Assembly (NCBI RefSeq): GCF_020144665.1 | Contig: NZ_JAAHBQ010000018.1 | Coordinates: 1-64,000, forward strand | Source: Oscillatoria salina IIICB1 | Lineage (GTDB): Bacteria; Cyanobacteriota; Cyanobacteriia; Cyanobacteriales; SIO1D9 | Direction of reading: 5' to 3' | Length of the DNA stretch: 64,000 bases | Notes under the pieces: generated by a model | What the model was told of the DNA's origin: nothing | The model's database searches: none | The model's input: only the letters and a program-made list of their open reading frames with translations | Part shown: positions 29,950 to 61,900 of the stretch, in pieces | Numbering within the stretch: position 1 is the first letter of the stretch | Layout of the letters: every line of letters starts with the position of its first letter | Position numbers and translations under genes: made by a program

Positions 29950-30272
29950 AAAATTTGGGGATTAGGGATTGGGTATTGGGGATTAGGGATTAGGGATTAG
30001 GGATTAGGGATTGGGGATTAGGGATTGGGGATTAGGGATTGGGTATTAGGGATTAGGGATTAGGGATTAGGGATTAGGGATTAGGGAGACAAGGAGTATA
30101 AACTGATAACTGATAACTGATAACTGTTCACTGAACCCAGTCCCCACCTCACCAGTCCCCACCTCACCACCTCACCAGTCCCCACCTCACCACCTCACCA
30201 GTCCCCAGTCCCCACCTCACCAGTCCCCACCTCACCACCTCACCAGTCCCCAGTCCCCACCTCACCACCTCA
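29950..30272. repeat. Dense short-repeat array between MFS and TonB-receptor genes
   Basis: From about 29955 to 30090 the DNA is a GGGATTA/GGGGATT heptamer-type array. It passes into ACTGATAACTG units (30095-30135) and then into a CCCCACCTCACCA/CACCTCACCAGT array (30138-30272). The receptor's stop codon (30270-30272) lies inside the last array. The three unit types are consecutive and account for nearly all of the spacer. Slippage and recombination should make this stretch polymorphic. Confidence 0.85.
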
Positions 30273-32828: not shown

Positions 32829-35800
32829 CTATACATTATTGAGAGTCATTTGCAACTGTTTGGCTAATTCTTCTACGTGAGGTTCAGTAAACATGGAAAA
32901 ATGGTTGCCGGGGATAGATTTTGTTTGGATCGGTTGCTGAGAGTATGGACTCCAACCAAAATAGCGATCGCTACTCTCAAATTCGGTCGAGTCGAAATCA
33001 TGAGTAATTTTCTCTATTGCTTTAAATAAGGTAATGTGGTAAGGGTAAACCTGTGGCTGATAAGATCGCATAGCTTGGACATGAGCCTTAAAAAGCTGGT
33101 AATTTCGTAGATGTTGGGCAAGTTCGCGATCGCTAGCCGTTAAGTTCGCCTTTTGATTCAAAAGGGCAAATTGCTCATTTAGCGGCAAATCCCGTAATTC
33201 TTGATAAGAAACATCAAACTCAATTCCAAACCAAGTTTTAATCGACTCAGCAAGACGCAGCAAAAACTTAGCATCGTCATCTTTACTCGGTTTAATCCTC
33301 ATTTGAGGCAAAATAGCATCAATTATGACCAACAAACTCACTTTTTCACCCTGACGAAGTAATTGTTGCGCCATCTCAAAAGCAACTACACCGCCGTAAC
33401 ACCAACCACCCAAAAAATATGGTCCCGTCGGCTGCACCTGACGAATTTCTTCTAAGTAATAAGCGGCTGTTTCCTCCACCGACTGAGGTTTTTCTTGCAA
33501 TTGATTAGGAGTTTGTTCCAAAGCATAAAAAGGTCGGTTTTTGTCGAGTTTTTGTGCCAAATTCAAATAAGCAGTAATATCTCCCCCAGCCGCATGAACG
33601 CAGAAAAAAGGAAGCTTGTCACCAGCAGGCTGAATTGCCACCAAAGGAGAACCCAAACCCAAACCCTCTGGTTGATTATTAAGTATGTTTGCTAATTGTT
33701 CAATAGTCGGATTCTCGAACAGAGTAGACAGAGGAAGATTGTGTCCAAAAACCTCATAAATTTGTGCCATTAAGCGTACTGTTAAAAACGAGTGACCGCC
33801 TAATGCAAAAAAGTTATCTTTAACGCCAACAGACTTAACATTTAAAAGCTTTGACCAAATTTTCGCCAAGGCTAACTCAGTAAAAGTTCTCGGAGCAACA
33901 AAAGATTGATGAGAACTAAGGCGAAGTAAATTATTTTTAGGTAAAGCTTGCTTGTCTACTTTCCCATTTGGTGTTAAAGGAATTTCCTCCAAAATCGTAA
34001 AAGCCGAGGGAATCATATACTCAGGTAATTTTTCGCGCAAATAATCATTTAATTGCGGCAAAACATCCGGTTCATCTGTCACCAAATAAGCTGCGATCGC
34101 GGTATCCGAATTAAATTTAGTCGCAATCGCAACCGCATCTTGAATAGCTGGATATTGAACAATAACCTGCTTAACTTCTCCTAATTCAACCCGGAAACCG
34201 CGAATTTTTATTTGCTCATCAATCCGCCCTAAATATTCCAAATTGCCATCAGGTAAATAACGCCCTAAATCGCCAGTTTTAAACAACTTACTTCCAGGAA
34301 AAAAGGGATTATCAATAAATCTCTCTTGAGTTAAATTAGGACGCTGCCAATATTCCTTAGCCAAGCCATCACCACCAACATATAATTCGCCAACAATTCC
34401 TACCGGAGTTGGTTGCAAATAACCATCTAAAACATAAATTTGGGTATTATTAATCGGGCGACCGATTGGCACGCTAGTCGCCTTTTCAGACAACAAATTA
34501 GTATCGTAATAAGTAACATTAGCCGAAACTTCCGAAGAACCATAAAGGTTAATTAATTTCGCATTCGGCATCAATTCGCGAAACTTGTTAACTAACTCAA
34601 GAGAGATAGCTTCGCCACTGGTTATCCAAACCTTTAACTCAGTTAAATTAGTAGTTAAATGACCGTAACTTTCTAAAATTACCCGCAGCAAAGAAGGAAC
34701 CAAAACAACTCGCGTTACCCTATTTTCAGCAAGAGATTCGAGAAATAATTGCGGATTTCTAACAATTGAATCAGCAAAAATAACAGTAGGTATTCCTTGA
34801 AGCAAAGGAGCAAAAATTTCCCAAACTGAATCAACAAAGCTAATTGCGGTTTTCTGACAACAAATTTCCTCTGTTGAAAAAGGGTATTTTTGCCACAGCC
34901 AGTGTAAGCCATTAACAGTACCTTTATGAGTACCAAGAACACCTTTAGGAGTTCCCGTTGAGCCGGAAGTATAGATTATATAAGCAGTATTTTCTGCTGT
35001 GGAAATTTGGCTAGGGTTGAGGTTACTTTTTTGTTGAATATTTTGCCATTCTTGGTCTAAATTTATAACTGCAATTTCGGCTAAATTGTCAGTTATTTTG
35101 TCTACTTGAGTAAGCAAAGATGAATGACTAATAATCAAGGTTGATTTTGAGTCAGAGAGCATAAAATTAAGGCGCTCAACTGGATAATTTGGGTCAAGAG
35201 GAAGATAAGCACCACCAGCTTTGAGAATTGCCAAAATTGCGATGACTATTTCGACGGAACGTTCTAAACAAATGGCGACAATAGTTTCTTGAGTAACACC
35301 TAGTTTTTGGAGATAATTAGCTAATTGATTGACTTTTTGATTCAGTTGTTGATAAGTTAGTTTTTCTGTTGGGCTGATTAAAGCTATATTGTCTGGTGTT
35401 TGCTCAACTTGTTGGTTAAATAATCGATCGAGAGAGGTTGTTTGGGGATAGTCTGCTTGAGTGTTATTCCACTGAGTTAAAATTTGTTGTTGTTGGCTAG
35501 TTAGTAAGGGTAGTTGAGAAATTTTTCGCTCTGGATTAGCAACAATACCTGTTAATAAAGTCTGGAAGTTCTCAATCAAGCAAGTAATGGTTTCCGCATC
35601 AAACAAATCGGTGCTGTATTCCAAAAAGCCAGTTAAATTTTGCTTAGATTTAGTAATTGAAAGGAAAAGATCGAACTGAGCCGTACCGCTATCCATTTCT
35701 AAACTACGCAAAGTTAATCCAGGAATTTCTTGAACAGTTTGAGGTGTATTTTGGAGAACAAACATCACCTGAAACAAAGGATTTCGGCTTAAGTCTCGTT

Positions 35801-36923
35801 CGGGTTGTAAGGTTTCGACTAATTGCTCGAAAGGCAAGTCTTGATGAGCATAAGCATTGAGAGTTACTTCTCGAACTCGACTCAAAAGTTCGCGAAAAGT
35901 AGGATTGCCACTTAGGTCATTACGAAAGACTAAAGTATTAACAAATAAGCCTAACATCGGTTCTAATTCTGGGCGTTTGCGGTTAGCAATTGAGGAACCG
36001 ATTAAGATATCTTCTTGATTTGTATAGCGGTAAAGCAAGGTACTAAAAGCAGCTAACAAAGTCATAAATAAAGTGACTTGTTCTTGCTGACTTAATTGAT
36101 GCAATCCTGCGGTAAGAGTTGGCGAGAAAGTAAAACATTGCTTTGCACCTTTAAACGCAGCCACAGAAGGTCGCGGGCGATGACTAGGTAACTTTAATAC
36201 AGGTAAATCGCCGCTTAGTTGCTGTTTCCAGTAGTTAAGTTGGGTGTTGAATAATTCACCAGGGAGATGCAAATTTTGCCAAATTGCAAAGTCTGCATAT
36301 TGAATTGGAAGTTCCGGTAAAGGTGAAGGTCGATTTTGAGAGAAAGCTGCATACAAAGTTGCTAACTCTCGTTCAAATACACCAATTGACCAGCCATCAG
36401 TGACGATATGGTGCATAGTTAGCAACAAAACGTATTCTTCTTGATTTAAACGCAGTAATTTGGCTCGTATCAGTGGTTTTTGGCTTAAATCGAAGGGTTT
36501 TTGCCCTTCCTCTCTGGCGATACATTCAACTTTCGCCTCCCAGTCGTTACCTAAATGCTGAAGATCGATGATGGGTAGTTCCCAAGTTAATTCCGACGGA
36601 GACGCGATCGCTTGTACAGGTTGTCGATCTACAAGGACAAAACTCGTCCGCCAAATTTCATGTCGTCTCATAATTTCGTTGAGACTTTGCTTCAATGCTA
36701 TTACATTCAATGCGCCTTTTAAATGAAGGACACCGACAATATTGTAGAAGGAACTTCCTTGATAAAGTTGGTCAATAAACCAAAGTCGTTGCTGAGGAAA
36801 TGATAAAGGAATTAACTCTGTATTTGAACGCTTAGGAATCGTTTCAGAATTGAATTTTCCTTTTTTCCATTTAGCGAATAAAGCTTGTTTTGCAGGTGAT
36901 AAATCAGAGTATTTGCTATCCAT
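32829..36923 (-). CDS. NRPS C-A-PCP-TE, terminal module
   Basis: This 1364-residue enzyme has an N-terminal helix (LSPAKQALFAKWKKGK) and a condensation domain (45-480, HHIVTDGW near residue 170). The adenylation domain (500-1010) has YTSGSTGTPKG. Its binding-pocket residues, aligned by eye to GrsA, read VDWVISLANK, one change from the VDWVISLADK signature I recall for beta-alanine. The PCP has GGHSF (about 1035-1105). A thioesterase lies at 1115-1360. Its nucleophile elbow is GGWCYGG, a Cys (codon 33399-33401, residue 1175) in place of the usual Ser. It adds the last amino acid and releases the chain. The upstream PKS gene ends 29 bases before it and the TonB receptor follows 15 bases after. 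Confidence 0.95.
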   Translation of the reverse strand: MDSKYSDLSPAKQALFAKWKKGKFNSETIPKRSNTELIPLSFPQQRLWFIDQLYQGSSFYNIVGVLHLKGALNVIALKQSLNEIMRRHEIWRTSFVLVDRQPVQAIASPSELTWELPIIDLQHLGNDWEAKVECIAREEGQKPFDLSQKPLIRAKLLRLNQEEYVLLLTMHHIVTDGWSIGVFERELATLYAAFSQNRPSPLPELPIQYADFAIWQNLHLPGELFNTQLNYWKQQLSGDLPVLKLPSHRPRPSVAAFKGAKQCFTFSPTLTAGLHQLSQQEQVTLFMTLLAAFSTLLYRYTNQEDILIGSSIANRKRPELEPMLGLFVNTLVFRNDLSGNPTFRELLSRVREVTLNAYAHQDLPFEQLVETLQPERDLSRNPLFQVMFVLQNTPQTVQEIPGLTLRSLEMDSGTAQFDLFLSITKSKQNLTGFLEYSTDLFDAETITCLIENFQTLLTGIVANPERKISQLPLLTSQQQQILTQWNNTQADYPQTTSLDRLFNQQVEQTPDNIALISPTEKLTYQQLNQKVNQLANYLQKLGVTQETIVAICLERSVEIVIAILAILKAGGAYLPLDPNYPVERLNFMLSDSKSTLIISHSSLLTQVDKITDNLAEIAVINLDQEWQNIQQKSNLNPSQISTAENTAYIIYTSGSTGTPKGVLGTHKGTVNGLHWLWQKYPFSTEEICCQKTAISFVDSVWEIFAPLLQGIPTVIFADSIVRNPQLFLESLAENRVTRVVLVPSLLRVILESYGHLTTNLTELKVWITSGEAISLELVNKFRELMPNAKLINLYGSSEVSANVTYYDTNLLSEKATSVPIGRPINNTQIYVLDGYLQPTPVGIVGELYVGGDGLAKEYWQRPNLTQERFIDNPFFPGSKLFKTGDLGRYLPDGNLEYLGRIDEQIKIRGFRVELGEVKQVIVQYPAIQDAVAIATKFNSDTAIAAYLVTDEPDVLPQLNDYLREKLPEYMIPSAFTILEEIPLTPNGKVDKQALPKNNLLRLSSHQSFVAPRTFTELALAKIWSKLLNVKSVGVKDNFFALGGHSFLTVRLMAQIYEVFGHNLPLSTLFENPTIEQLANILNNQPEGLGLGSPLVAIQPAGDKLPFFCVHAAGGDITAYLNLAQKLDKNRPFYALEQTPNQLQEKPQSVEETAAYYLEEIRQVQPTGPYFLGGWCYGGVVAFEMAQQLLRQGEKVSLLVIIDAILPQMRIKPSKDDDAKFLLRLAESIKTWFGIEFDVSYQELRDLPLNEQFALLNQKANLTASDRELAQHLRNYQLFKAHVQAMRSYQPQVYPYHITLFKAIEKITHDFDSTEFESSDRYFGWSPYSQQPIQTKSIPGNHFSMFTEPHVEELAKQLQMTLNNV

Positions 36924-36952: not shown

Positions 36953-39900
36953 CTATTTAGCCAAAAAAGCTTCTACTTCTTCATCTGATAATTCGGCAAT
37001 TTTTTCGAGCAAAAGTTGCTCAATCATTTCTGCTTGTTTAGCTACAGTCGAAGCTTGAATTAACAAGTCACGGAGAGGTAAAGAACTAGGAAACTTTGCC
37101 CGCAAACGAGAAATTAACTGAGTAGCAACTAACGAGTCTCCTCCTAACTCAAAAAAGTTATCATAAATTCCCACTTGCTTAATACCAAGAACTTCTTGCC
37201 ACATTTCGGCAATTTCCGTTTCTAGTTCGTTAGTTGGAGCAAAATAAGAACTATTTAAATTCGTGGGTCTTGAGTGTTTTTCTTGAATTGAAGAGCGATC
37301 GTTTAAGTTTAGTTCGTCAAACAAAGTCTCAAAATCTTCAGCATTTTCTGGGTTAAAAGTATAAAGATTTTCACTTAATTTGCTAAACTGTTCGCCAACT
37401 TTTACCGTAACTACATTTTTACCTTTTTCTGCTAATTTATTAATTAATTGAGAACCCTTGCCATTTTCATCTACAAACACAAAACAGCGCTCTTTTTTAT
37501 CCAAACTGACTGAATCATTTTGTCCAGAAAAAGAATTTGATTTCGCCTCAATCCAGTAACGCTGACGTTCAAAAGGATAGGTTGGTAAGGGAACGCGATA
37601 ACGTTTTTCATGCTGATAAAATCCCGCCCAATCTATTTCTACACCTGCCAGAAAAAGTTTACCTACAGTATTTAATAAAAAGGCGAGATCGGAAGTTCTC
37701 TCTTGCGGGTGGCGTAAAGAAGTTAAGACAATTTGCTTAGTTTCCGGTCTTAAATGGCGTTTGGTTAAGGTGCTTAAAGTTCGTCCCGGTCCCACTTCTA
37801 AGAAAATTGCTTCAGCTTGTCGCAATAATTCAGAAATTCCCGGAGAGAATTTGACAGTTTGGCGCAAATGTTTAGCCCAATAATTGGGATTTGTAGCTTC
37901 CCGATCGGTAATCCAAGTACCAGTAACATTAGAAATAAAAGGAATTTGCGGTGGCTGCAAATTGAGCTTTTCGATTATCAACCGGAAAGGTTCTAAAATT
38001 GGCTGCATCATCTCAGAATGGAAAGCGTGAGATGTATGTAAAATTCGACATTCTACACCTTGCGTAGCTAATTTATTTTGTAATGCTTTTATGAGGTTAG
38101 TTTCACCGGAAACAACGCAGGAGGATGGACTGTTAATTGCTGCTAAAGATATTTCGGAAAATATCTCTAAATCGAGTAAAGATTGGATTTCAGTTGAGGA
38201 AAGTGGCACAGCCAGCATACTTCCTGACGGCAATTTCTGCATCAGTTGACCCCTTGCTGCGACTAAAGTTAAAGCATCTTCTAAAGAAAAAACACCAGCC
38301 AGAGTAGCTGCTACATATTCGCCAATACTATGACCAATTAAGGCTTTAGGATGTACGCCCCATTCGAGCCATAATTTGGCGAGAGAATACTCGATGACAA
38401 ATAAGGCAGGTTGGGCAAATTTTGTCTGGTCTAAAGAGTTTATTTCGCAGGTTTCACGCGGGTAGAGAAGCTGACGTAAATCTAATTTTAAATGAGGTTG
38501 GAGAATTTCTGCACAAATATTTACTTGTTGGCGGAATGTTGGCTCAAATTCGTACAATTCTCGCGCCATATTGATGTATTGCGCTCCTTGTCCAGAAAAC
38601 ATAAATATTACTGAACGATTGCCAGGTTTTTGGTATTGGGTAAAAACGCTTGCGGGTGCGAGAGTAGTTAAGGCTGCGATCGCGTCTTCTAAATTATCGG
38701 AAAAAGGACAAACTACCATGCGGCGATAGTCGAAATTTTGACGACCAACTTGCAGTGTATAAGCTACATCAGCGAGATTCAAATTAGGATTATTTTGTAA
38801 ATGTGCTGCGAGATTTGCCGTTGCTGTTTCTAAAGCGGAATTAGTCTTAGCTGAAAGTAATAATAATTGCCAAGGGCGATTGGTGATTGGGGATTGGGGA
38901 CTGGGGATTGGGGATTGGGAATTGATAACTGATAACTGATTACTGTTAACTGAAACTGGTGCTTCTTCAAGGATTAGATGAGCATTAGTTCCGCCAATTC
39001 CAAAAGAACTAACTCCAGCGCGACGAGGAGTTTTCTTAGTTTTCCATTCCGCAAGTTTGGTGTTGACATAAAAGGGACTATTGGCAAAATCAATCTGAGG
39101 ATTTGGTTGGAAAAAATGTAAACTGGGGGGTATTTGTTGATGTTTTAAAGCTTGAACAGTTTTGATTAAACCAGTAATCCCCGCAGCCGTATTCAAATGT
39201 CCGACATTAGATTTTACTGACGCGATCGCGCAAAAGCCTTTTTCCTCGGTGTGGCTACGAAACGCTTGGGTAAGAGCTTCTATTTCAATCGGATCTCCTA
39301 AACTGGTTCCAGTACCATGTGTTTCGACGTAGGTAATCGTCTCTGGTTCAACTTGCGCTAACGCGATCGCCTCTAAAATTACTTCTTTTTGACCCTCGAC
39401 GCTAGGAGCAGTATAACCAACTTTTAAGGAACCATCATTATTAATTGCTGAACCTTTGATAATCGCGTGAATAAAATCACCATCAACTAAAGCGTCTTCA
39501 AGGCGTTTTAAAACTACCACACCCAAACCATTACCAAAAATAGTTCCTTGAGCATTCGCATCAAAAGCTCGACAATGACCATCAGGAGAAAGAATTCCTC
39601 CTTCTTGATAAGCATAACCTGTTTTTTGGGAAGCATTAATCGAAACACCTCCAGCTAAGGTAATATCGCTTTCTCCGTTGAGCAAACTTTGACAAGCTAA
39701 GTGAACCGCAACTAATGATGTCGAACAAGTAGTTTGCACATTAACACTCGGTCCGCGCAAATTTAACTTATAAGAAATTTGGGTCGGTAAATGGTCTTTA
39801 TCATTACCAATTAAGGTTTGAAACAAGTCCACCGATGCCATAAATTCCCGATTCGGATACAAATTTAAAAATAAGTAACTACTCAGCGCTGCACCTGCAT

Positions 39901-40282
39901 AAATTCCAATTTGTCCTGAATAATTTTCCGGATTGTAGCCAGCATTTTCTAATGCTTCCCAAACACATTCTAAAAAGAGACGATGTTGGGGATCTGCTAT
40001 TTCTGCTTCTCTGGGTGTAAAACCAAAAAATGCAGCATCGAATAACTCGATATCTTCGAGAATACTCCCTGCTTTTACATAATTTGGGTCATTAAACACT
40101 ACTGGATTTATACCTGCGGCTTTTAGTTCTTCATCAGTAAAAAAATTAATTGATTCCACGCCATCTCGCAGATTTTGCCAAAAAATATCTACGTTTGGCG
40201 CTCCGGGAAAACGTCCTGCTATACCGATAATAGCGATTTCATCTTTCTCTGACAAGCTATCAATTTGATTTGGATTAATCAT
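36953..40282 (-). CDS. Type I PKS module KS-AT-ACP with KR relic
   Basis: This is a 1109-residue extension module. The KS (10-430) has an intact triad: Cys in TTCSTS near residue 186, VETHGTGTSLGDP and NVGHLNTAAG. The AT (about 540-870) has GHSIGEY near 650, and HAFH, the malonyl-type motif. The ACP (about 1020-1085) has GGDSL. There is no ketoreductase. A stretch near 930-995 (ERCFVFVDENGKG and NVVTVKVGEQFSKLSENLYTFNPEN) matches the KR structural subdomain of the PKS at 58957-63471, so the catalytic KR seems deleted. The KS-AT linker holds translated repeat sequence (about 443-467). It should add malonyl and leave a beta-keto group. Confidence 0.95.
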   Translation of the reverse strand: MINPNQIDSLSEKDEIAIIGIAGRFPGAPNVDIFWQNLRDGVESINFFTDEELKAAGINPVVFNDPNYVKAGSILEDIELFDAAFFGFTPREAEIADPQHRLFLECVWEALENAGYNPENYSGQIGIYAGAALSSYLFLNLYPNREFMASVDLFQTLIGNDKDHLPTQISYKLNLRGPSVNVQTTCSTSLVAVHLACQSLLNGESDITLAGGVSINASQKTGYAYQEGGILSPDGHCRAFDANAQGTIFGNGLGVVVLKRLEDALVDGDFIHAIIKGSAINNDGSLKVGYTAPSVEGQKEVILEAIALAQVEPETITYVETHGTGTSLGDPIEIEALTQAFRSHTEEKGFCAIASVKSNVGHLNTAAGITGLIKTVQALKHQQIPPSLHFFQPNPQIDFANSPFYVNTKLAEWKTKKTPRRAGVSSFGIGGTNAHLILEEAPVSVNSNQLSVINSQSPIPSPQSPITNRPWQLLLLSAKTNSALETATANLAAHLQNNPNLNLADVAYTLQVGRQNFDYRRMVVCPFSDNLEDAIAALTTLAPASVFTQYQKPGNRSVIFMFSGQGAQYINMARELYEFEPTFRQQVNICAEILQPHLKLDLRQLLYPRETCEINSLDQTKFAQPALFVIEYSLAKLWLEWGVHPKALIGHSIGEYVAATLAGVFSLEDALTLVAARGQLMQKLPSGSMLAVPLSSTEIQSLLDLEIFSEISLAAINSPSSCVVSGETNLIKALQNKLATQGVECRILHTSHAFHSEMMQPILEPFRLIIEKLNLQPPQIPFISNVTGTWITDREATNPNYWAKHLRQTVKFSPGISELLRQAEAIFLEVGPGRTLSTLTKRHLRPETKQIVLTSLRHPQERTSDLAFLLNTVGKLFLAGVEIDWAGFYQHEKRYRVPLPTYPFERQRYWIEAKSNSFSGQNDSVSLDKKERCFVFVDENGKGSQLINKLAEKGKNVVTVKVGEQFSKLSENLYTFNPENAEDFETLFDELNLNDRSSIQEKHSRPTNLNSSYFAPTNELETEIAEMWQEVLGIKQVGIYDNFFELGGDSLVATQLISRLRAKFPSSLPLRDLLIQASTVAKQAEMIEQLLLEKIAELSDEEVEAFLAK
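37305..37500 (-). other. Relic of a ketoreductase structural subdomain within the PKS
   Basis: The segment NVVTVKVGEQFSKLSENLYTFNPEN aligns with AVVTVRMGEKFVRVSEIEYTINPDS of the KR-bearing PKS at 58957-63471. There it begins the long non-catalytic half of the KR domain. Here the remaining roughly 330 residues, including the NADPH site and catalytic Tyr, are missing. The ACP follows shortly after. Confidence 0.7.
38881..38953. repeat. Translated short repeats in the KS-AT linker
   Basis: GGGGATTGGGGACTGGGGATT-type heptamers and GATAACTGATAACTG units are identical in type to the intergenic arrays. Here they are read in frame on the minus strand as SVNSNQLSVINSQSP and IPSPQSPI. No stop arises in the used frame. 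Confidence 0.85.
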
Positions 40283-40334: not shown

Positions 40335-41105
40335 CTAAGGTTTGCGAAAAATATAAACTATTCTTGTATCCCTTAATTCCGAAATAGGAACATCTTCCGT
40401 TACATCATGAATGATAACTTTCTCGAAGCCGATCTCTTTCAAAGCTGACTCAATTTCTGTACGAGAATAAGCTTTAATTTCGCAATCAACAACTTTTCGT
40501 TGCCATTTTCCTTTACTTAATTGAAAAGTGACGTGCTGAGTTTGCCATGATTTACTTTCTAAGTCATAAATCGAACGTTTTAGCCACGCATAATCGTCGC
40601 TAAAATCACCTAACATTTCCTCAACTACAGTATTCTCATCAGAGACTATTTCTCCTTCACTTAAATCAAAAGCAAACCAACCATTTTCTAATAGTGCAGA
40701 ATAGACATTGCGAAAAGCTTTTTTCAGATCCTCAAGACTCAAAATATAGTTAAAAACACAACTTGCTGCGACAACAGCATGGAAAGTTGGCGGCAATTCT
40801 AAAGAACAAATATCACCTACCATAAATTTACCTTCGGGAACATTTTTGCAAGCAAAATGTAACATTCTCTCCGATAAATCAAGCCCGGTAACTTGATAAC
40901 CTTTAGCAATTAGTTCGCTAACTAATTCTCCTCTCCCGCAACCAACATCTAGAATGCGAGATTCTGTCGGTAAATATTCCAGGAAATATTTGCCGACAAA
41001 TTCTAACCAAAGTTCGCTGCTGCGATCGTCTGGATAAGCAAAAGCCCACTCATTAAAAAGAGCGCGAGCATTTTCATTTTCGGTTGCATTATTGACTGAA
41101 TCCAT
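40335..41105 (-). CDS. SAM-dependent methyltransferase, first of a tandem pair with 41158-41922
   Basis: This class I methyltransferase of about 256 residues has motif I ILDVGCGRGELVSELIAKGY, the acidic GLDLSERML, and later FVGD/FDLSEGEIV segments. It is closely similar along its whole length to the next gene upstream, so the two are recent tandem duplicates. The frame opens at a TTG (41117) just after AGGAG. The ATG at 41105 aligns with the paralogue's start and is used here; the true start is uncertain. It should methylate O or N atoms of the NRPS-PKS product or of an extender unit. The substrate cannot be read. Confidence 0.88.
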   Translation of the reverse strand: MDSVNNATENENARALFNEWAFAYPDDRSSELWLEFVGKYFLEYLPTESRILDVGCGRGELVSELIAKGYQVTGLDLSERMLHFACKNVPEGKFMVGDICSLELPPTFHAVVAASCVFNYILSLEDLKKAFRNVYSALLENGWFAFDLSEGEIVSDENTVVEEMLGDFSDDYAWLKRSIYDLESKSWQTQHVTFQLSKGKWQRKVVDCEIKAYSRTEIESALKEIGFEKVIIHDVTEDVPISELRDTRIVYIFRKP

Positions 41106-41157
41106 ATAAATAATCAACTACTCCTAATTATTTTTTTCAACGGAAAAGTATTCAAGA

Positions 41158-41922
41158 TTAAGGTTTACGAAAAACGTAGACTATTCTTGAGTCAGTTAAC
41201 AAAGGAACATCTTGGCTGACATCATGAAGGACAACTTTTTCAAAGCCAATATTTTCTAATATCGCTTGAACTTCTGTACGAGAATATCCCTTGGCTTGAC
41301 AATCTACATCTTTTCGTTGCCAACTGCCACCTAGCAAGCGAAATGTAATGTGTTTAATTTGCCATAACTTGTTGGCTGGAGTATAAATTGTTCGTTGTAA
41401 CCAAGCATAATCATCAGCAAAATCTCCTGAGAATTCTTCGGCAATTGAACTATCATTTTCGCTGACTATTTCTCCCTCACTTAAATCAAAACCAAACCAA
41501 CCTTTTGCTAATAAAGCATTATAGACATTGCGGAAAGCTTTTTCTAAATCCTCAAGACTCAAAATATAGTTAAAAACGGTGCTTGAGGAAATAATTGCTT
41601 GATATGTTGGTGGCATTTCTAAAGAGCAAATATCACCAAGAATAAACTCTCCCCTAGGAGCATTTTGACGAGCGAAATGTAACATCTCCTCAGAGAGATC
41701 GATTCCACTAGCTTGATAGCCTTTATTGATGAGTTCGTTGACTAATTCTCCTTTGCCACAACCAACATCTAAAATGCGAGAGCTTGGTGATAAATTTGCT
41801 AAGAAATATTTACCGACAAATTCTAACCAAAGTTGACTACTCCGTTCGTCTTGGTAAGCAAAAGCCCAATCATTGTAGAATGAGCGAGCATTTTTTTCGG
41901 ATTCTCGTTTTGCTGTATACAT
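41158..41922 (-). CDS. SAM-dependent methyltransferase, second of the tandem pair
   Basis: This 254-residue class I methyltransferase has ILDVGCGKGELVNELINKGY (motif I), GIDLSEEML and GDICSLEMPPTY. It is a paralogue of the neighbour at 40335 and shares the stretch FVGKYFL and the C-terminal RIVYVFRKP. AGGAG stands ten bases before the ATG. It lies 40 bases downstream of the decarboxylase. Two near-copies may methylate two sites or have split functions. Either could replace the missing FkbG-type O-methyltransferase of the hydroxymalonyl cassette, although they are not of the FkbG type by appearance. Confidence 0.88.
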   Translation of the reverse strand: MYTAKRESEKNARSFYNDWAFAYQDERSSQLWLEFVGKYFLANLSPSSRILDVGCGKGELVNELINKGYQASGIDLSEEMLHFARQNAPRGEFILGDICSLEMPPTYQAIISSSTVFNYILSLEDLEKAFRNVYNALLAKGWFGFDLSEGEIVSENDSSIAEEFSGDFADDYAWLQRTIYTPANKLWQIKHITFRLLGGSWQRKDVDCQAKGYSRTEVQAILENIGFEKVVLHDVSQDVPLLTDSRIVYVFRKP

Positions 41923-41962
41923 CAAAAAATTACTCCTAAATTAATTTGTCTCGATTGCTTTT

Positions 41963-43615
41963 TTAAGCGACATGATCGGCAGATTCTAGAGAGGTTGAAT
42001 TTGCTATTTCTAGGGCAATTTGGATTTGGTCATTTAAGACTTCATCAATATCCTTTTCAGTAGTTAGAGGGTTAGCAATTACTGCCCTAAGAGCAACAAT
42101 AGGAATCGTTCGTTCCAGGTTGGTTTTTGTAGTGCGGGAAATAAAAGTTCGACCTGCTTGGCGCTGTTTTTTCTGAAGAATTTCGTTAAATTGATTGATG
42201 CGCTGATTGTCGATTTCGGTCAACTGTTTTTGCGCCGCTCTTGCTCTTAAATTTTCGGGAATGTAACGATAAATAAGCAAGTTGATTTCTGGTTCAGCTA
42301 GTAACTCAAATTCTGGCAATTCGCGAATTCGATTAGCGAGATATTGAGTTTTATGAATTCCTTCATCAATTAAAAATTCATAGCCTTTAATGCCGATTAA
42401 ATTTAACCCAGCGTGTAGGAACAATGCCATACCCGATCGCGAACCTTCTAAAGCTCGTTTACCTAGATCGAATGAGCCTTTACGAATGGTATAAGTGGCA
42501 TTTTTTTCGATTACTTTTGCTATGTGGGGATTGCGGAGAAAAAGCATCCCTAAATTCATTGGTAAATAGAGTTGTTTATGTCCGTCAATTGTTACCGAAT
42601 CAGCTTGTTCGATACCCGCAAGTTTATGTTGGTATTGTTGGGAAAAAATTAGCGCCCCACCCCAAGCTGCATCGACATGAAAATGGACATTAGCTTCTCG
42701 TGCAATGGCGGCAATTTCTGTTAGGGAATCTACGCCACCGGAGTCGGTAGTTCCAGCAACACCAACGATCGCGATAATATGTTTATTCTGGGCTTGACAA
42801 TCGGCAACAGTTTGCTGTAAAGCTGGGATATCGATGCGATTATTGCTGTTACTCTTGACTTTAATTAAGCCACGCGCCCCAATGCCTAATAAGTCTGCGG
42901 CTTTATCAAATGAGTAGTGCATCAAGTCGGAACCAATGACTACCGCTTCTTTGTAACCGTAGTAGTTGAGGGCGGCGACTAAACCTTCGCTTTCGATACC
43001 GGGAAAGTCATCTTTTGGTCCGAGGGAAGTGTTGCGGGCGCACCAAAGTGCGGTAATATTCGCTGCCGTGCCGCCGGAAACCAAGATACCGAGGGTACTT
43101 TGGCTATTTTGGATGTGTTGAGCGTAGAAGCGATCGCTAAAGTTGTAAATTAGTCGGTGTATCATTGCTAAAGCCTGACGCTCATAGGGGCTTAAGGCTT
43201 TCGATGTTTCTATTTTGACTACGTTTTGATTCATTGCCATCATTAATTTCGCCAAAGGTTGCACAAAATAAGGCAATGCTGAGGTCATGTGACCGATGAA
43301 TTTTGGCGATCCCGTATGTACTGAATGGGCAATGACGTTATTAGCTAAGTAGTCAAGATAGCTTTCAAAATTAGTAGGTTCGACGGGAATATTTACATCA
43401 GAAAATTTTTCTAACAACGAATTAAATTCAATTGTCGTAGTTGGACGATCTTCTGCTAAAAAATCCTCGGTTAAGTTGGTAAATTTTTCATTTATTTCTT
43501 TTCTTTCAGAGGCTAATTGCTCGCTCATAGCAAATAGCTGCATTATTTTTTTTTCAATTTCCGGTTTACTTTCTAAAGCACTTTTAAAAGTGATTTTTGG
43601 TTGGCTTAAGGTCAT
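41963..43615 (-). CDS. PLP-dependent group II amino acid decarboxylase
   Basis: This 550-residue protein of the glutamate/aspartate/diaminobutyrate decarboxylase family carries LVSGGTAANITALWCARN and VGVAGTTDSGGVD. HVDAAWGGALIF contains the PLP-contacting Asp, and DGHKQLYLPMNLG contains the Schiff-base lysine (near residue 347). It lies between the NRPS with a beta-alanine-like A-domain signature and the methyltransferases. The simplest inference is an aspartate decarboxylase (PanP-like) making beta-alanine for the two A domains. 2,4-Diaminobutyrate decarboxylase is the main alternative, since such enzymes occur in siderophore clusters. Confidence 0.88.
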   Translation of the reverse strand: MTLSQPKITFKSALESKPEIEKKIMQLFAMSEQLASERKEINEKFTNLTEDFLAEDRPTTTIEFNSLLEKFSDVNIPVEPTNFESYLDYLANNVIAHSVHTGSPKFIGHMTSALPYFVQPLAKLMMAMNQNVVKIETSKALSPYERQALAMIHRLIYNFSDRFYAQHIQNSQSTLGILVSGGTAANITALWCARNTSLGPKDDFPGIESEGLVAALNYYGYKEAVVIGSDLMHYSFDKAADLLGIGARGLIKVKSNSNNRIDIPALQQTVADCQAQNKHIIAIVGVAGTTDSGGVDSLTEIAAIAREANVHFHVDAAWGGALIFSQQYQHKLAGIEQADSVTIDGHKQLYLPMNLGMLFLRNPHIAKVIEKNATYTIRKGSFDLGKRALEGSRSGMALFLHAGLNLIGIKGYEFLIDEGIHKTQYLANRIRELPEFELLAEPEINLLIYRYIPENLRARAAQKQLTEIDNQRINQFNEILQKKQRQAGRTFISRTTKTNLERTIPIVALRAVIANPLTTEKDIDEVLNDQIQIALEIANSTSLESADHVA

Positions 43616-43654: not shown

Positions 43655-46600
43655 TTAACTGTTAATAGCTCGATGTTTTTGTCTGATTTTTTTGCGGCGT
43701 TTGATTGAATTTTGACGATGTAATGGGCGGTTATCAGTTGGGAGTAAATCATCTTTTTTCTTTTGCTGCTGACTTAAATATTCAGCCAAGTGGCTAATCG
43801 TTGGATATTGAAACATTACTACTAATGGTAAATTTAGCTGGAATGTTTTTGCTAGTCTACTATGTACTTGCACCAACAGTAATGAATGACCGCCGAGATC
43901 GAAGAAGTTGTCATAAATACCTACTTCTTCAACTTGCAGTGCTTCTTGCCAAATAGTAGCAATAGTTTGCTCTAATTCGGTTTGGGGTGCTTGATAAACG
44001 GCTTCTAATTCAGGACGCAGGCGATCGGGAACTGGTAGCGCTTGACGATTTATTTTACCATTTGGCAGTAAAGGTAAAGAGTCGAGAATGACAAATATTG
44101 CCGGAATCATATAGTCGGGTAAATGTTTTTTCAACCAGTACTGAAGTTCGCTAATGGTGAGTTCGCTAACCACATAAGCTACTAATTGCGGTTCATCTGT
44201 TCTGGCGATAACTACTGCTTCGTCAACGTTTTCATTATTAGTGAGTACCGCTTCAATTTCTCCTAGTTCAATTCGGAAACCACGCAGTTTTACTTGGTTG
44301 TCAATCCGTCCAACTAATTCGAGGTTTCCATCGGGAAGATAGCGGGCTAAATCTCCAGTTTTATAAAGTTTTTGTTCGCTGAATTGAGAGTTAGTTTCCA
44401 GATTAAGAAAAGGGTTAGAAATAAACCTTTCTGCTGTTAGTTCAGGTCGGTTTAAATAACCTCTTGCTAGTCCAGTACCACCAATATATAATTCACCAGG
44501 TACGCCAATAGGAACGGGTTGTAAATGTCGATCTAACAAATAAATTTGGGTATTGGTTAGAGGACGACCGATCGCTACAGATAAAGTTGCTGAATTTTGG
44601 GGAGTAAATTCGTAGCAAGTGACATCAGCAGAAACTTCTGAGGAACCGTATAGGTTCAAAAGCGTACTTTGTGGCAAGATTTGCCGAAATTTGCTTAATA
44701 AATCGAGACTGAGTGCTTCTCCACTGCTAATCCAAAGTTGCAATTTTGGTAGGATTTGTTGCAGATTGGGATAAGTGTCTAAAAGTACGCGCAGCAAAGA
44801 GGGAACAAGTACCAATCTGGTAACATTATGATGAGCAAGAGTTTCAACGAATTGCTGCGGATTTTTGATGACGCGATCGCTAATTACAACTGTGGGAATT
44901 CCTTGTAATAATGGTCCGAATATTTCCCAAATTGAGTCAACAAAATTTAAGGATGTTTTCTGACAACAAACTTCTCCTGGAGTGAAAGGATAAGTCTCCC
45001 ACATCCAATTAAATCGATTGACAGCACCTTTGTGAAGACCGAGAACCCCTTTAGGTTTACCTGTGGAACCGGAGGTATAGATAACGTAAGCTAGATTATC
45101 AATTGTAGCATTGCTAACAGGATTTTCTGAGCTTTCTTGAGCAATAGTTTCGTCGGTATCGAGACAAATTACCTGTGCGTTGGTGGTGGAAATTTTATCC
45201 AGCAAATGTTGTTGAGTCAACAAAATTGGTGCTTGAGCATCCTCTAACATGAATTCTAACCGTTCTTGGGGATAAGCGGGATCTAGAGGTACATACGCTC
45301 CCCCAGCTTTGAGAATCGCTAAAATGGCGATGGCGCTTAACTCGGATCTCTCCAAACAAATTCCTACTAATACTTCTGGTTTGACACCCAACTTTTGCAA
45401 ATAATTTGCTAACTGATTGACTTTTGAATTCAGTTCTCGATAAGTTAATTTTTCTTCGCCAAAAATAACCGCAACTTCATCGGGCGTACGTTCTACTTGG
45501 GCAGCAAATAACTCATGAATACACCGATTTTGCTGATAATCAGTTTTGGTATTATTCCACTCCAATAATAACTTTTTTTGTTCGTCGGTAGCAAGCAAAG
45601 GTAAATTCCAAATCTGCTGTTCTGGATTATCTACAATACTCTCTAGTAAAGTTTGCCAATGTTTTAGCCAGCGAGAAATCGTTTCAGCATTAAATAGATC
45701 GCTGTTATATTCACACTCAACTAAAAGTTGCTCATTGGTTTGACGAACATCAAAGAAAATATCGGTAATTGTTGCCCCCGTCGGATTGCGTTCAAAGTCA
45801 ATTTCGCCCCCGGCAAACGTTGACTTTGATAGCGGTCGGTCTAAATTAAAAATCGCTGTCACCAAGGGAGAACGACTCGGATCGCGAGGTAAATTTAATT
45901 TTTTTACTAAGTTGATAAACGGATAAATTTGCCGATCGTAAGCATCTGATAACAACCCTTTAACTGAATTCAGATACTCAGTAAATGTCAAATTTTCACT
46001 TACTTTACTGCGAATTGGCAACAGATTCACGTAATGACCAACCAAATATTCACCTTGCACAGTAGATTGTCCTGCGGAAGTAATCCCAACCACAAGATCT
46101 TCTTGGTCGCTCAATCGATGTAACAAAGTCACAAAACTTGCAAAAAGAGTTGTAAAGAAAGTGCTTTTTTGCTTGACACTTAAGCTTTTTAATGCTTGGA
46201 ATAATGACGTATTTAAAGTTATACTTTGTCGAGTGCCGACGTGCAGATTGATTGCCGGACGAGGACGATCTGTAGGCAACTCTAACACCGGAACGCGATC
46301 GGCAAATTGATTAGTCCAATAAGCCTCAGCTTTTGCCATTTCTGGACTATTTTGCTGTTGTAATTCCCAGTGAATATAATCACTCAATTGCATTGGTTGG
46401 GGGAGATTATGAGAAATACTTTGACATTCGGCAGTGTAAATTTCAGCTAATTCTTGTTGCAAAACACCAAACGACCAACCATCAGCAATAATGTGATGAA
46501 TTGTCAAAACTAGCAAATGATGTTGTTCCGCCAATTTAACAATTTTCGTACGCAGTAGGGGTAGTCCCCCCGTGGCTACCCCGGCTTCCCCCGTGGCTAC

Positions 46601-49060
46601 CCCGGCTTCCCCCGTGGCTACCCCGGCTTCCCCCGTGGCTACCCCGGCTTCCCCCGTGGCTACCCCGGCTTCCCCCGTGGCTACCCCGGCTTCCCCCGTG
46701 GCTTTTTCCTGACTATTTCCTATTTGAAAATCAAAGGTTTGTTGAGCTTCTTGGGCGAGAAATTCAGCTAACTTTGGAGAAATTTCACTATTACCTAAAT
46801 TCGAGAAATCGATTAAAGGTAACTCTATTTCCCAAGTAGAATGAATGCGCTGATAATCTCCTTCGGGGCTAAAAGTAGTTCGCAGTGCTTCATGACGATT
46901 CACAACTTCTTGAATCGCTTTCTGCATCGCTGAAAAATTAAACGAACCGCGCAAATGAATCGTTGCTGATTGGTTATAAGCGCGGGAAACTTCCTCTCCC
47001 ATTTGCGCCATAAACCAAATTTCCTTTTGTGCTGCTCCTAAAGGAATAGTACGCGATTTTGGATGCTCAAATTTCGAGGTAATTTCTGCGACGATTGTGT
47101 TTAAATTAGCTGAATTTTCCGAATCACCATTTTTGTTAGCCAAATCATTTTCTGATGATGGTAAAAATCCTCCTGCTTGCATCTCCACAATGCTTTCCTT
47201 CACCGCCCGAATAAATCGCTCAATATCTTCTTCAGTATGAGCAGTAGAAAGGAAAAACCTCCGGTTATCTAAAGCATAAATCCCCTTATCAAGCAAGTGA
47301 TAGAAGAACAAATCTATCCAATTGAGAACGGGTGAATAGGTAAAACGGAACAGCGAACCAAAATGCACAACTTGAATTGGCAGTTGTTTTTCCTCAAAAT
47401 AACTGTTAAGTGTAGCTGCTAATTGGCTTGTTTTGGCGGTTAATTCTTCCTGAAGCTTTCCTCCTTGTTCTTTTAAGTAATTAAGCGATGCCCAAGCCGC
47501 AGTCATAACCAGAGGATGTTTGAAAAATGTTCCTTTAAAATGAGTTGTTTCGACATGAGGAGAAGAATCATCGCCATATTGCCAAAAGCCACCATCTAAT
47601 ACATCCATAAAAGCAGCTTTGCCAGCTAAAATTCCAATTGGCATTCCTGCTCCTACAGCCTTGCCGTAAGTAGTTAAATCTGCTCGAATATTCCACAAAG
47701 CTTGGATACCACCGGGGTGCATCCGAAAGCCAGTAATAATTTCATCAAAGATTAATACAACTCCTGTTTCTGCCGTAATTCGCCTCAGTTCGTGGAGAAA
47801 TTCTTTTGGTTGTAAATCGGGTCGAGTGCTTTGTATTGGTTCAACTAAAATAGCAGCTAATTCATGAGCATGATTTTTGACGATTTCCAGGGATTTGGGA
47901 TTACCATAATCGAGGATGAGAGTTTGTTCAACTTTGTACTGAGGAATTCCTGGAGCGATCGCCATCGGATCTAGGGTTTCATCTTCATTGGGTACACCCA
48001 TCATCAAAACATCATCTAAGGTTCCGTGATATGAACCTGCAAAGTAAGCGATTTTGCTGCGTCCAGTTACGGTTCGTGCGGTGCGGATTGCACCCATTAC
48101 GGCTTCTGTGCCATCGTTACAAAAAGCGACTCTTTCTTGGTCGGTTAATTCACAAATTAATTTGGCAACTTTACCTGCAAGAATTGATTGAGGACCGTGT
48201 TGAATTCCTTGCTGAAGATAGTTTTGAATAGGTTCGATGATAAATGAGGGTGAATGACCAAATAAAAGTGCGCCAAACCCCATAATCATGTCTACATATT
48301 CGTTGCCGTCAATATCCCAAATTCTGGCACTTTCTCCACGTTGGGGATAGATTGGGTAGCGCATTTCTTTCAAAGAAGGTCGAAAACCCATTGCGGCTCT
48401 AACATTAGCATGATAAGGGCGATCTTCTTGGGTGAGTTGTTTTGATTTGGGGGTACGTTTGACGATACTTGCAATTAGTGAATCGAGATGTTTTTGCTGT
48501 TGAGAATTAAGGGTTGAGGTTTTTGCTTTGGGTGGAATTTTTGGCTTGGGCTGTGGCTGTGGAGGAGTTGGATTGAACGTCTCTACCTTGTGGTTTCCTT
48601 GGGTTACGTTAGTATTGCTGCTTAATAATTCTAACTGTTTCGACATCAATTCGAGTTGCTGGGCAACCAGTCGCGCGAGATCTGCTTTCTCTGGATGTTT
48701 GCTCTGGCGCTTCTCTACAGGAAATTGAGGTTTTTCTTTAACTATTTTGGGAGCATCGATAGAGATATTTTCTGGGATTTCTGCGGGGATTTGCTCGGCG
48801 ATATAAATCGCTAATTCGTTAATTGTTGTGCAGTTTTCTAGCAATAAGCGAAAAGATAAATCTAGTCCAAATTTTTCTTTAATTGGGGCTTTTACTTGGA
48901 TAAATAATAAAGATTCTAAACCAAGTTCAAAAAAATTGGTATGAACGTCTATTTCCGTCTTACTAACGCCAAGCACTTTGGCAAAAATATCTTTTAAGCT
49001 CGATAAAACTAGCTCGAACTGCGGATTTTTTTCAGTTAAGTTAACGTTTGCTTGAGACAT
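43655..49060 (-). CDS. Hybrid ACP-aminotransferase-C-A-PCP megasynthase
   Basis: An 1801-residue protein. An ACP (20-95, LGLESLLF) is followed by a helix (AQQLELMSKQLELL) and a GSA-type aminotransferase (about 205-650, DEIITGFR and the PLP Lys in TTYGKAVGAGMPIG). The C domain (690-1140) has HHIIADGW. The A domain (1160-1660) has a pocket code VDWVISLADK by eye, the beta-alanine signature as I recall it. The PCP is near 1722 (GGHSL). The aminotransferase should turn the beta-keto thioester from the preceding KS-AT protein into a beta-amine, as in mycosubtilin and microcystin systems; the C domain then joins it to beta-alanine. A 21-bp minisatellite is translated in the C domain at residues 786-831. 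Confidence 0.95.
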   Translation of the reverse strand: MSQANVNLTEKNPQFELVLSSLKDIFAKVLGVSKTEIDVHTNFFELGLESLLFIQVKAPIKEKFGLDLSFRLLLENCTTINELAIYIAEQIPAEIPENISIDAPKIVKEKPQFPVEKRQSKHPEKADLARLVAQQLELMSKQLELLSSNTNVTQGNHKVETFNPTPPQPQPKPKIPPKAKTSTLNSQQQKHLDSLIASIVKRTPKSKQLTQEDRPYHANVRAAMGFRPSLKEMRYPIYPQRGESARIWDIDGNEYVDMIMGFGALLFGHSPSFIIEPIQNYLQQGIQHGPQSILAGKVAKLICELTDQERVAFCNDGTEAVMGAIRTARTVTGRSKIAYFAGSYHGTLDDVLMMGVPNEDETLDPMAIAPGIPQYKVEQTLILDYGNPKSLEIVKNHAHELAAILVEPIQSTRPDLQPKEFLHELRRITAETGVVLIFDEIITGFRMHPGGIQALWNIRADLTTYGKAVGAGMPIGILAGKAAFMDVLDGGFWQYGDDSSPHVETTHFKGTFFKHPLVMTAAWASLNYLKEQGGKLQEELTAKTSQLAATLNSYFEEKQLPIQVVHFGSLFRFTYSPVLNWIDLFFYHLLDKGIYALDNRRFFLSTAHTEEDIERFIRAVKESIVEMQAGGFLPSSENDLANKNGDSENSANLNTIVAEITSKFEHPKSRTIPLGAAQKEIWFMAQMGEEVSRAYNQSATIHLRGSFNFSAMQKAIQEVVNRHEALRTTFSPEGDYQRIHSTWEIELPLIDFSNLGNSEISPKLAEFLAQEAQQTFDFQIGNSQEKATGEAGVATGEAGVATGEAGVATGEAGVATGEAGVATGEAGVATGGLPLLRTKIVKLAEQHHLLVLTIHHIIADGWSFGVLQQELAEIYTAECQSISHNLPQPMQLSDYIHWELQQQNSPEMAKAEAYWTNQFADRVPVLELPTDRPRPAINLHVGTRQSITLNTSLFQALKSLSVKQKSTFFTTLFASFVTLLHRLSDQEDLVVGITSAGQSTVQGEYLVGHYVNLLPIRSKVSENLTFTEYLNSVKGLLSDAYDRQIYPFINLVKKLNLPRDPSRSPLVTAIFNLDRPLSKSTFAGGEIDFERNPTGATITDIFFDVRQTNEQLLVECEYNSDLFNAETISRWLKHWQTLLESIVDNPEQQIWNLPLLATDEQKKLLLEWNNTKTDYQQNRCIHELFAAQVERTPDEVAVIFGEEKLTYRELNSKVNQLANYLQKLGVKPEVLVGICLERSELSAIAILAILKAGGAYVPLDPAYPQERLEFMLEDAQAPILLTQQHLLDKISTTNAQVICLDTDETIAQESSENPVSNATIDNLAYVIYTSGSTGKPKGVLGLHKGAVNRFNWMWETYPFTPGEVCCQKTSLNFVDSIWEIFGPLLQGIPTVVISDRVIKNPQQFVETLAHHNVTRLVLVPSLLRVLLDTYPNLQQILPKLQLWISSGEALSLDLLSKFRQILPQSTLLNLYGSSEVSADVTCYEFTPQNSATLSVAIGRPLTNTQIYLLDRHLQPVPIGVPGELYIGGTGLARGYLNRPELTAERFISNPFLNLETNSQFSEQKLYKTGDLARYLPDGNLELVGRIDNQVKLRGFRIELGEIEAVLTNNENVDEAVVIARTDEPQLVAYVVSELTISELQYWLKKHLPDYMIPAIFVILDSLPLLPNGKINRQALPVPDRLRPELEAVYQAPQTELEQTIATIWQEALQVEEVGIYDNFFDLGGHSLLLVQVHSRLAKTFQLNLPLVVMFQYPTISHLAEYLSQQQKKKDDLLPTDNRPLHRQNSIKRRKKIRQKHRAINS
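46567..46703. repeat. 21-bp minisatellite inside a condensation domain
   Basis: Six exact 21-base units (CCCCCGTGGCTACCCCGG plus CTT on the plus strand) and an 11-base partial copy lie head to tail. On the coding strand each unit encodes GEAGVAT. The G+C content is far above that of the surroundings. It sits between ...FDFQIGNSQEKAT and GLPLLRTKIVKL, where other C domains have an uninterrupted FDL...GPLLR segment. Confidence 0.95.
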
Positions 49061-56583: not shown

Positions 56584-56587
56584 AATT

Positions 56588-57787: not shown

Positions 57788-57790
57788 TTG

Positions 57791-58039: not shown

Positions 58040-58059
58040 GTTAAAATTTGCCCTAAATT

Positions 58060-58956: not shown

Positions 58957-61900
58957 TCAGCTATTGACAATCAATTCTGCTGCTTCCTCTTCAGTTAAAT
59001 TTTCGATTTCCGCCAAGACCATTTCTTCAATTAAGACGGCAAATTCGGCAATTGAAGGAGCTTCGATAAACGCTCGCAAGGGAACTTCTAACTGAAAAGT
59101 TTGTCGCAGACGATGAATTAATTGGGTGGCTAATAAAGAATGTCCTCCTAAAGCAAAGAAATTGTCATGAATGCTGACTAATTCGATTCCTAAAAATTCT
59201 TGATAGAGTTCGGCAATTTGGCGCTCAGTTTCGTTGCGCGGTGCAATATAAGCAGTGCGTCGGCGCGAATTTTCCTTATTTTGCTCTGATTTAGTTACTG
59301 CTGTTGGATTAGGAAGAGATTGACGTTTCAGCCATTTGTCAATTTCCGCAGTTAAATCGGTACGCCAAATTGCAATTTGGGGAACTAAGCGATAAGAAAA
59401 TATTCGCTGCAAAGCATCGATTGTTTCTTGTTGGAAAACGGCGGTTTCGTTTGAGTTTGCAGTTGTTTCAGCTAAGGAATTTCGCAGTAAGTTGGTATTT
59501 TCGGCGTGAAACCAATTTGCACTGCACCAGTGAGTTTTTCCGAGTTGATTTTGTCGGCTAGCAAAAGCATCGACAAAGTTATTTGTCGCTGTATAAGCAG
59601 CAAAGCCTACTCCACCTAAGACTGCACCAATTGAGGAAATTAAGAAACAAAAATCAACTTCTTTGTCTGACAAAATTTTCTCTAAAGTGTAGAGTCCGTA
59701 GACTTTAGCGCGAAACTGTAATTCACATTCTTTGGGGGTGGTTTCTTGAATGGTGCGGACGATTTCTTCACCAATAAAAGCGGCTGCATGAATTACCCCA
59801 TTAACTTTACCGAAGCGCTTTTCTGCTTGGGAAAATACTTGCTGCATTTGAGTTTCGTCAGCGACATCTGCTGTTGCGATCGCCACTTCTGCTCCTAATT
59901 CTTCTAATTGTCGCACTTTCTCGATCTTTGTGCTAGCTTCCGGTGGTAGTCCGGAACGTCCTACTAATACTAACTTGGCGCTGACAGTTCTGGCGAGATA
60001 TTCAGCAATTGTTAAGCCAATTCTTCCCAATCCTCCGGTAATCAGATATACTCCTTCCGGACGCAAGCGTTGAGGTAATTCCACGATTTTGTCGAGTTTG
60101 ACTGGGGTAAAAGTTTGCAACCATCGTTGCTTTCCTCGGTAAGCGATAATCAAATCATCAGTTTGAGTTGCGAATTCACTCAGCAGCAAATCTATTTCCG
60201 GTGAGGTAAGATTTGCGGCTAAATCCAGACTATGACAGGTAAGATTGCTGTATTCTTGGGGAATAACTTTGCATAATCCTAACAAAGTCGCTTTTTCGGG
60301 ATGACAGACATCAATGCTTTCAATTGCGTGCATTCCCCTAGATATTACCCAAATGTCAATCGCATCGTTAATTAGTTGTTCGCTAATTGCTTGAGTGAGA
60401 AACAAAAGACTATAAAAGTTGTAAGCTTGGGTTTGGCTAAAATCTTCCTTTTCTTGATTTAGCTTGAGACTCCATAGATGTAAAATCCGATGAGGAATTT
60501 GCTTATTTGCTTGCAGACTTTGCAGAAGTTGCTGATAGTCATTTTTCGAGTCAGGGTTAATGGTATATTCGATCTCGCTAACTCGGACGAATTTCTCTCC
60601 CATCCTGACAGTGACAACTGCTTCGTTTTCTGATGTTAATCGCTGTAAAATTTGCGAACTTAGCTGAGTTTCCTCTGCAAACACCAAATAACTACACTTT
60701 TGCGCTACTTTGATTTCCGGTAAGATTGATTGCTTCCAGGTGGGAACATAGAACCAATCGGCGGGATCTGACTTTCTGGTAGAACTAGGTAAAATAGTGG
60801 CAGATTTTGGCGGTTCCAACCAGTAACGCTGACGTTCAAAAGGATAAGTTGGTAAGGGAATGCGATAAAGTTGCTTCTCAGCCGCAAATTTTGACCAATC
60901 GATTTTAACTCCCGATAACCACAACTGACCTAAAGTATGAAGTAAAAATTCCTCATCTGACTGTTGGGTGTAAGCATCGCGTAGGGAACTAAAAACATTT
61001 CCTTCCTCTTCTAAACACTGTACAGTTAAGCTACTCAAGGTTTGTCCGGGTCCCACTTCTAAGAAAATTGGTTGTTGTTGCGCTAATTCTTTAATTCCGT
61101 CTGCAAAACGTACAGGTTGACACAGATGCTTAGTCCAATATTCGGGATTTGTCGCTTCTGCGGCAGTTATCCAAGTTCCGGTAACATTGGAGATATAAGG
61201 AATTTGCGGTGGTTTGAGGTTGATTGTTTTGACTAATTCCGTGAAAGGTTGCGCGATCGCCTCCATCATCTGAGAATGGAAAGCGTGGGATGTCTGTAAG
61301 TGTCGATAAGCTTGTCCGTTTTCAGCTAATTGGTTAGCTAATTTTGCTACTGCTTCCTTTGTTCCCGCAACGACGCAAAGTTTGCTTCCGTTAACCGCAG
61401 ATAAGGACAATTCTGAGTTGAGGAAGGGACGTACTTCAGCCTCAGCCAGAGGAATTGCTAACATCGCTCCACCTGGTAGTTTAGCAATCATTTGCGCCCT
61501 TTTCGCGACCAAAGTTAAGGCATCTTCTAAGGATAAAACTCCGGCTATGGTTGCCGCAACGTATTCACCAATACTGTAACCGATCGCTGCTGTGGGATAT
61601 ATTCCCCAAGACAGCCATAATTGGGCTAATGCGTACTCGATGACAAAAATCGCAGGTTGGGTAATCTGAGTTTGGTTGAGTTTTTGGCTATTTTCGTCGA
61701 GAGATGCGGAGGTACGATTTAACATTTGTCGTAAATCGATCTTAGATGTAGTTGGATTAGAGGAAGTTACCCAATCACCAGGATAAATTATCTCTCTTAA
61801 ATCGATTCCAAGCAAAGGTTTGAGGAATTCGCAACAACGCGCGATCGCATTTTGAAATACTGCTTCATTTTGATACAGTTCCTTCGCCATATTGACATAT

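Follow-up and report, generated by a model that had tools for sequence, protein, structure and literature searches.

The 64,000-nucleotide stretch of Oscillatoria salina IIICB1 analyzed here (the window) carries a polyketide synthase (PKS) module, P0001, with a short segment resembling part of a ketoreductase (KR) between its AT and ACP domains. This raises the questions of whether the segment is the footprint of a deleted KR, from which module it would then descend and what the loss would mean for the product. P0001 and its parts are located as follows:

36953..40282, minus strand: P0001, a KS-AT-[KR stub]-ACP polyketide synthase module of 1109 aa (Pfam and NCBIfam scans)
39113..40243, minus strand: KS domain, residues 14-390
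37637..38608, minus strand: AT domain, residues 559-882, with GHSIGEY and HAFH motifs
37307..37492, minus strand: KR stub, residues 931-992 (PF21394, NF047870, our own profile and fold search)
37013..37246, minus strand: ACP, residues 1013-1090, with LGGDSL motif

P0001 displays all motifs of a non-reducing extension module (TCSTS, HGTGT, GHLN, GHSIGEY and LGGDSL) and no KR; we take the KS, AT and ACP motifs as signs of complete domains, and the combination of GHSIGEY and HAFH presumably marks a malonyl-type AT. The AT-ACP linker comprises ~100 residues and starts after the AT end at residue 910; positions 37305-37500 on the minus strand correspond to residues 928-993. In this region, the Pfam model PF21394 (Beta-ketacyl_N) matches residues 937-994 with 35.4 bits (cut-off 26.9), and the NCBIfam model NF047870 (“KR prefix domain”) matches residues 926-991 with 59.9 bits (cut-off 35). 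The predicted absence of the catalytic half was confirmed, as the Pfam scan yielded no match in P0001 to PF08659, the NADPH-binding Rossmann subdomain forming the KR catalytic part, without which P0001 does not qualify as carrying a functional PKS ketoreductase. Likewise, P0001 leaves uncovered the catalytic part of our own profile of intact modules, built from 29 intact AT-KR-ACP regions with 614 positions. P0001 aligns to this profile at positions 1-35 (AT end), 61-128 (within the KR structural subdomain) and 554-614 (ACP); positions 36-60, the first strand with WFYxPxWK (~30 residues), are gone, as are positions ~129-553 downstream of the stub (~420 residues). As aligned, the stub is an interior island of the KR structural subdomain with gaps on both sides. 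The original prediction had placed it at the start of this subdomain; the assignment to the subdomain holds, but the start itself is missing.

The stub was predicted to fold into a beta-alpha-beta-beta-beta-alpha core (pLDDT 65-86). The top fold matches of this model are both KRs, from MlnE (5d2e, E 2.4e-3) and from 6ulw; E 0.001 was not reached by any match, and the model benefited from KR rows included in its alignment. The whole-module model of P0001 (mean pLDDT 53) is too poor for placing the stub. Compared with the KR structural subdomain of modular PKS (PF21394, NF047870), the stub is thus alike in its ~60-residue sequence, element order and fold matches, but comprises the interior third only, with the first strand, second half and catalytic subdomain missing.

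Full-length matches to a profile of stub plus ACP were found in 3 of 386 genomes of a phylum sample (the window genome, Lyngbya sp. CCAP 1446/10 [G334] and G129) and in 4 of 195 genomes of an overlapping order sample, where Argonema antarcticum (G425) joins these three. A family-level genome search returned the window's own genome only. A fresh deletion restricted to the window genome is ruled out, as four lineages carry the stub. On our own profile, the modules L017 and L018 align at 55/56-131 and again at 549/551-614, and L149 at 57-133 and 548-614; the upstream junction lies at the identical place in all four carriers, and no internal gap occurs across the 62 codons of the stub in any of them.

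The stub module is part of a terminal cassette with conserved order, consisting of a PLP decarboxylase, sometimes a methyltransferase, the last PKS and then C-A-PCP-TE. In the window, P0001 is flanked by the following genes:

32829..36923, minus strand: P0004, C-A-PCP-TE, the next and last module, A code VDWLISLANK
40335..41117, minus strand: SAM methyltransferase of 260 aa, between decarboxylase and PKS
41158..41925, minus strand: SAM methyltransferase of 255 aa, 66% identical to the one at 40335..41117
41963..43615, minus strand: P0008, PLP-dependent aspartate 1-decarboxylase PanP (NCBIfam, 632.5 bits, cut-off 606.1)
43655..49060, minus strand: P0003, ACP-aminotransferase-C-A-PCP, upstream of P0001, A code VDWLISLADK

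We surveyed this cassette in 42 rows, 23 of which were used and represent 21 clusters (two clusters being covered twice); the 19 rows left out, including LEGE 12452 and KVJ20, both with KR, showed no last PKS followed by a C-A-PCP-TE gene. In G655, G665 and G659, as well as in two C-scar clusters out of three, the sequence covered stops before the TE gene or within it. Related clusters with an intact KR, which it had been suggested to look for, are common, with 12 of the 21 last modules keeping their KR, four containing the stub described here (N-stub), three a C-stub and two being clean. An intact KR in matching context (decarboxylase, KS-AT-KR-ACP, C-A-PCP-TE) was identified in G167, G298 and G276b. 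The C-stub modules of Nostoc ATCC 43529, N. calcicola and N. paludosum (L034, L050 and L062) keep the C-terminal KR end, covering positions 494/503-614 of our profile with one breakpoint common to the three copies, whereas no scar is left in the clean last modules of G338 and Nostoc CMAA1605. A second cluster of the window genome (contig C38, 53001-72000, L095) ends in KR-bearing PKS modules, its C-A-PCP-TE being 61% identical to P0004.

Selection on the stub was compared with that on the remaining domains. Among L017, L018 and L149, the stub displays dN/dS values of 0.61-0.92, compared with 0.09-0.12 for KS, 0.15-0.18 for AT and 0.14-0.29 for ACP; the nonsynonymous excess in the stub versus KS, AT and ACP combined yields Fisher p values of 0.0029, 0.0016 and 0.0028 for three pairs that overlap and are not independent. 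For the equivalent segment of intact modules, ten of 14 pairs range from 0.12 to 0.26; outliers are one pair with 0.47 and one with 1.73 and almost no synonymous change, and two are unscorable, their KR having been swapped so that KR and KS-AT histories differ. From these substitution patterns we read the stub as a decaying relic that is still required to be passable in frame, and weak constraint on its length or fold may persist, given that none of the four carriers has an internal gap. It is improbable that the stub is instead a domesticated spacer or docking element, retained for holding the ACP in position or for bringing the neighboring methyltransferases to the 3-oxo intermediate. Such a role would suit both the gap-free interior in four lineages and the predicted fold, but not the relaxed dN/dS of the stub. 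Recruitment in particular is disfavored because stub and methyltransferase do not co-occur: Lyngbya (G334) and Argonema (G425) contain the stub and no window-type methyltransferase genome-wide at E 1e-30, and the clean clusters of G338 and Nostoc CMAA1605 contain the methyltransferase and no stub.

The stub was further compared with a KR-bearing sibling module in the window:

58957..63471, minus strand: P0002, KS-AT-KR-ACP with a complete KR (Pfam scan)
60193..60687, minus strand: complete KR structural part of P0002, residues 929-1093 (Pfam scan)

Both peptides quoted in support of the original prediction are present in the sequences of P0001 and P0002, and pairwise alignment sustains their similarity: the P0001 AT-ACP linker aligns locally to the AT-ACP region of P0002 with a score of 126, which none of 2000 shuffled linkers reached (maximum 61). 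Together with the lack of any similar stretch in the clean modules, this makes it very unlikely that the likeness to KR reflects chance or composition in the normal post-AT linker of a non-reducing module, even if the stub sits at the usual linker place and linkers of 60-80 residues occur in some non-reducing relatives. A better match to an unrelated linker family, which would speak for such an origin, was sought as well, but no family other than KR matched the stretch in Pfam and NCBIfam scans.

The four stub modules group in a single clade (support 94/93) when KS-AT regions from 47 rows are placed in a tree, nested in a 100/100 clade of 23 rows that contains 14 KR, four N-stub, three C-stub and two clean modules. 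Another tree, with 52 rows, agrees and gives the stub clade a support of 95. The intact KR nearest to the stub among the best 45 matches listed, stubs aside, is that of G167/L153 (56% identity over 57 residues), a module from a neighboring clade with a gene order as in the stub clusters. It is extremely improbable that P0001 and P0002 are within-cluster duplicates of which P0001 then lost its KR, the origin initially proposed on the grounds of related KS-AT-(KR)-ACP architectures in one cluster and now of a significant alignment, because their KS-AT regions are not sisters, a constrained tree joining them is 117 log-likelihood units worse (p-AU 2.3e-8 under the model used, the long P0002 branch of 0.52 in the 47-row tree being the main caveat), and the stub aligns to P0002 with a score of 125 compared with 183 for G167. 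P0002 ranks among the weaker matches to the stub and is absent from the best 45 matches listed.

In the 47-row tree, the clean modules of CMAA1605 and G338 may be sister to the stub modules (81/57), a placement undecided in the 52-row tree; complete erosion after a single loss and two losses are both possible. KR-bearing orthologs (G655, G659, G665, G651 and NMS8) surround the Nostoc C-stub on the 52-row tree, and this topology therefore indicates that the KR was lost at least two times within the last-PKS family, the C-scar being an event separate from the N-stub. The ancestry of the Nostoc C-scar is not simple, since the nearest intact gene looks recombined. This KR module (G276, L152:5581-10209) is nested among the C-scar modules L050, L034 and L062; its KS-AT is 95.6% identical to that of L050, but identity falls to 74.7-77.3% just past the gap, as if its KR region had been exchanged or regained via recombination. 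Elsewhere in the cassette PKS family, L039 and L158 as well as L027 and L157 share KS-AT regions that are 83-84% identical and KR catalytic parts of only 35-44%, pointing to probable KR swaps.

Collectively, the stub is very probably the relic of a KR that the pathway's last PKS module, itself derived from a KR-bearing terminal cassette, lost by deletion in an ancestor shared by four or more cyanobacterial lineages, and it now serves as a spacer under relaxed constraint. The footprint proposed originally is hence supported by homology above curated cut-offs, by intact-KR orthologs in matching context, by nesting in a mostly KR-bearing clade and by relaxed constraint. In the proposed course of events, a deletion in this ancestral last module left two gaps of ~30 and ~420 residues, visible on comparison with intact modules, which enclose an interior KR structural piece between AT and ACP. 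P0001 descends from KR-bearing modules of the corresponding cassette in other genomes rather than from P0002, and its stub now evolves as a spacer, the relaxation being seen for three of the four carriers. Because the stub lacks any cofactor-binding or catalytic part, the module would pass a 3-oxoacyl chain to C-A-PCP-TE.

Since P0001 contains the KS, AT and ACP motifs and the window contig shows no further KR-like match at E 1e-3, the chain that it passes to P0004 is, as judged from domain content, most likely a 3-oxoacyl chain, which makes a retained ketone plausible. The gene neighborhood differs along with the KR. The A domain immediately preceding the decarboxylase has the code VDWL[IV]SLADK in six of six N-stub and clean clusters, each with an aspartate decarboxylase beside this module, and in none of the eight KR clusters with a readable upstream A domain. 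We assume this code to be beta-alanine-like, which fits the adjoining aspartate decarboxylase; P0008 would then act as beta-alanine supplier. In four of the six N-stub and clean clusters, decarboxylase and PKS are separated by a methyltransferase at least 53% identical to those of the window; in none of the 12 KR clusters does such a methyltransferase occupy this place. Since N-stub and clean clusters may share an ancestor, these correlations with KR loss may count as one or two events. The two neighboring methyltransferases may process the 3-oxo group further, and the ketone may be free in some members of the cluster family and masked in others. Enol O-methylation of 3-oxoacyl-ACP is established in cyanobacteria for LynB2, and the enol-ether modules LynB2, BarF and JamN employ MT-ACP didomains (PMC10127204), unlike the window with its stand-alone methyltransferase genes. 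It is conceivable, although rather doubtful, that KR loss was one step in a coordinated rebuild of the pathway end, yielding a 5-amino-3-oxo- or 3-methoxy-pent-2-enoyl-beta-alanine terminus and possibly a metal-binding 1,3-dicarbonyl, with a putative TonB receptor gene as a neighbor in the window.

Several further features were observed around the cluster. A putative TonB-receptor-like protein is encoded in the cluster at 30270-32813, and a condensation-A-PCP protein at 52082-55471 has the A code DLYSMSLIWK, which we take to be Cys-like; a metallophore is a possible product. An FkbH-domain protein, an acyl-CoA dehydrogenase and a 3-hydroxyacyl-CoA dehydrogenase follow in a row at 55516-58932, presumably resembling an extender set of the methoxymalonyl or hydroxymalonyl type. 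Within the P0003 condensation domain, positions 46567-46703 hold 6.5 copies of a 21-base unit with 100% identity, encoding an in-frame (ATGEAGV)n repeat; the unit was not found elsewhere in the genome within one mismatch. A literature search revealed nothing direct on the product of the cluster.

Domain deletion, including ER loss, has been reported to drive the diversification of cyanobacterial PKS/NRPS, an example being MinA of Nostoc linckia NIES-25, which lacks the ER (PMC12184294). In both cases, a reductive domain was lost among related clusters and the oxidation state changed with it, presumably so for the window, but here KR rather than ER was lost, and a legible scar is retained in four lineages. 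Azalomycin F modules 3 and 6 likewise contain a partial KR in a modular PKS; there, ~50 structural-subdomain residues are missing and the rest is kept (PMC9899208), the reverse of the window stub. In the Nostoc C-scar modules, the KR was lost from the corresponding cassette module and the opposite KR end is kept. No further published partial-KR modules were found in the literature beyond these two reports, which is no proof of absence. As domain loss is already known in cyanobacterial PKS/NRPS evolution, the stub is a new, unusually legible example of a known route and not a new kind.

Domain loss is a known way for such pathways to alter their products, and the last modules with KR (12), N-scar (4), C-scar (3) and no scar (2) constitute a natural series on this process. 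Their scars mark cut points between AT and ACP that nature has tolerated, which are useful for engineering KR removal, and the products of the series would directly reveal whether the oxidation state depends on KR loss alone.
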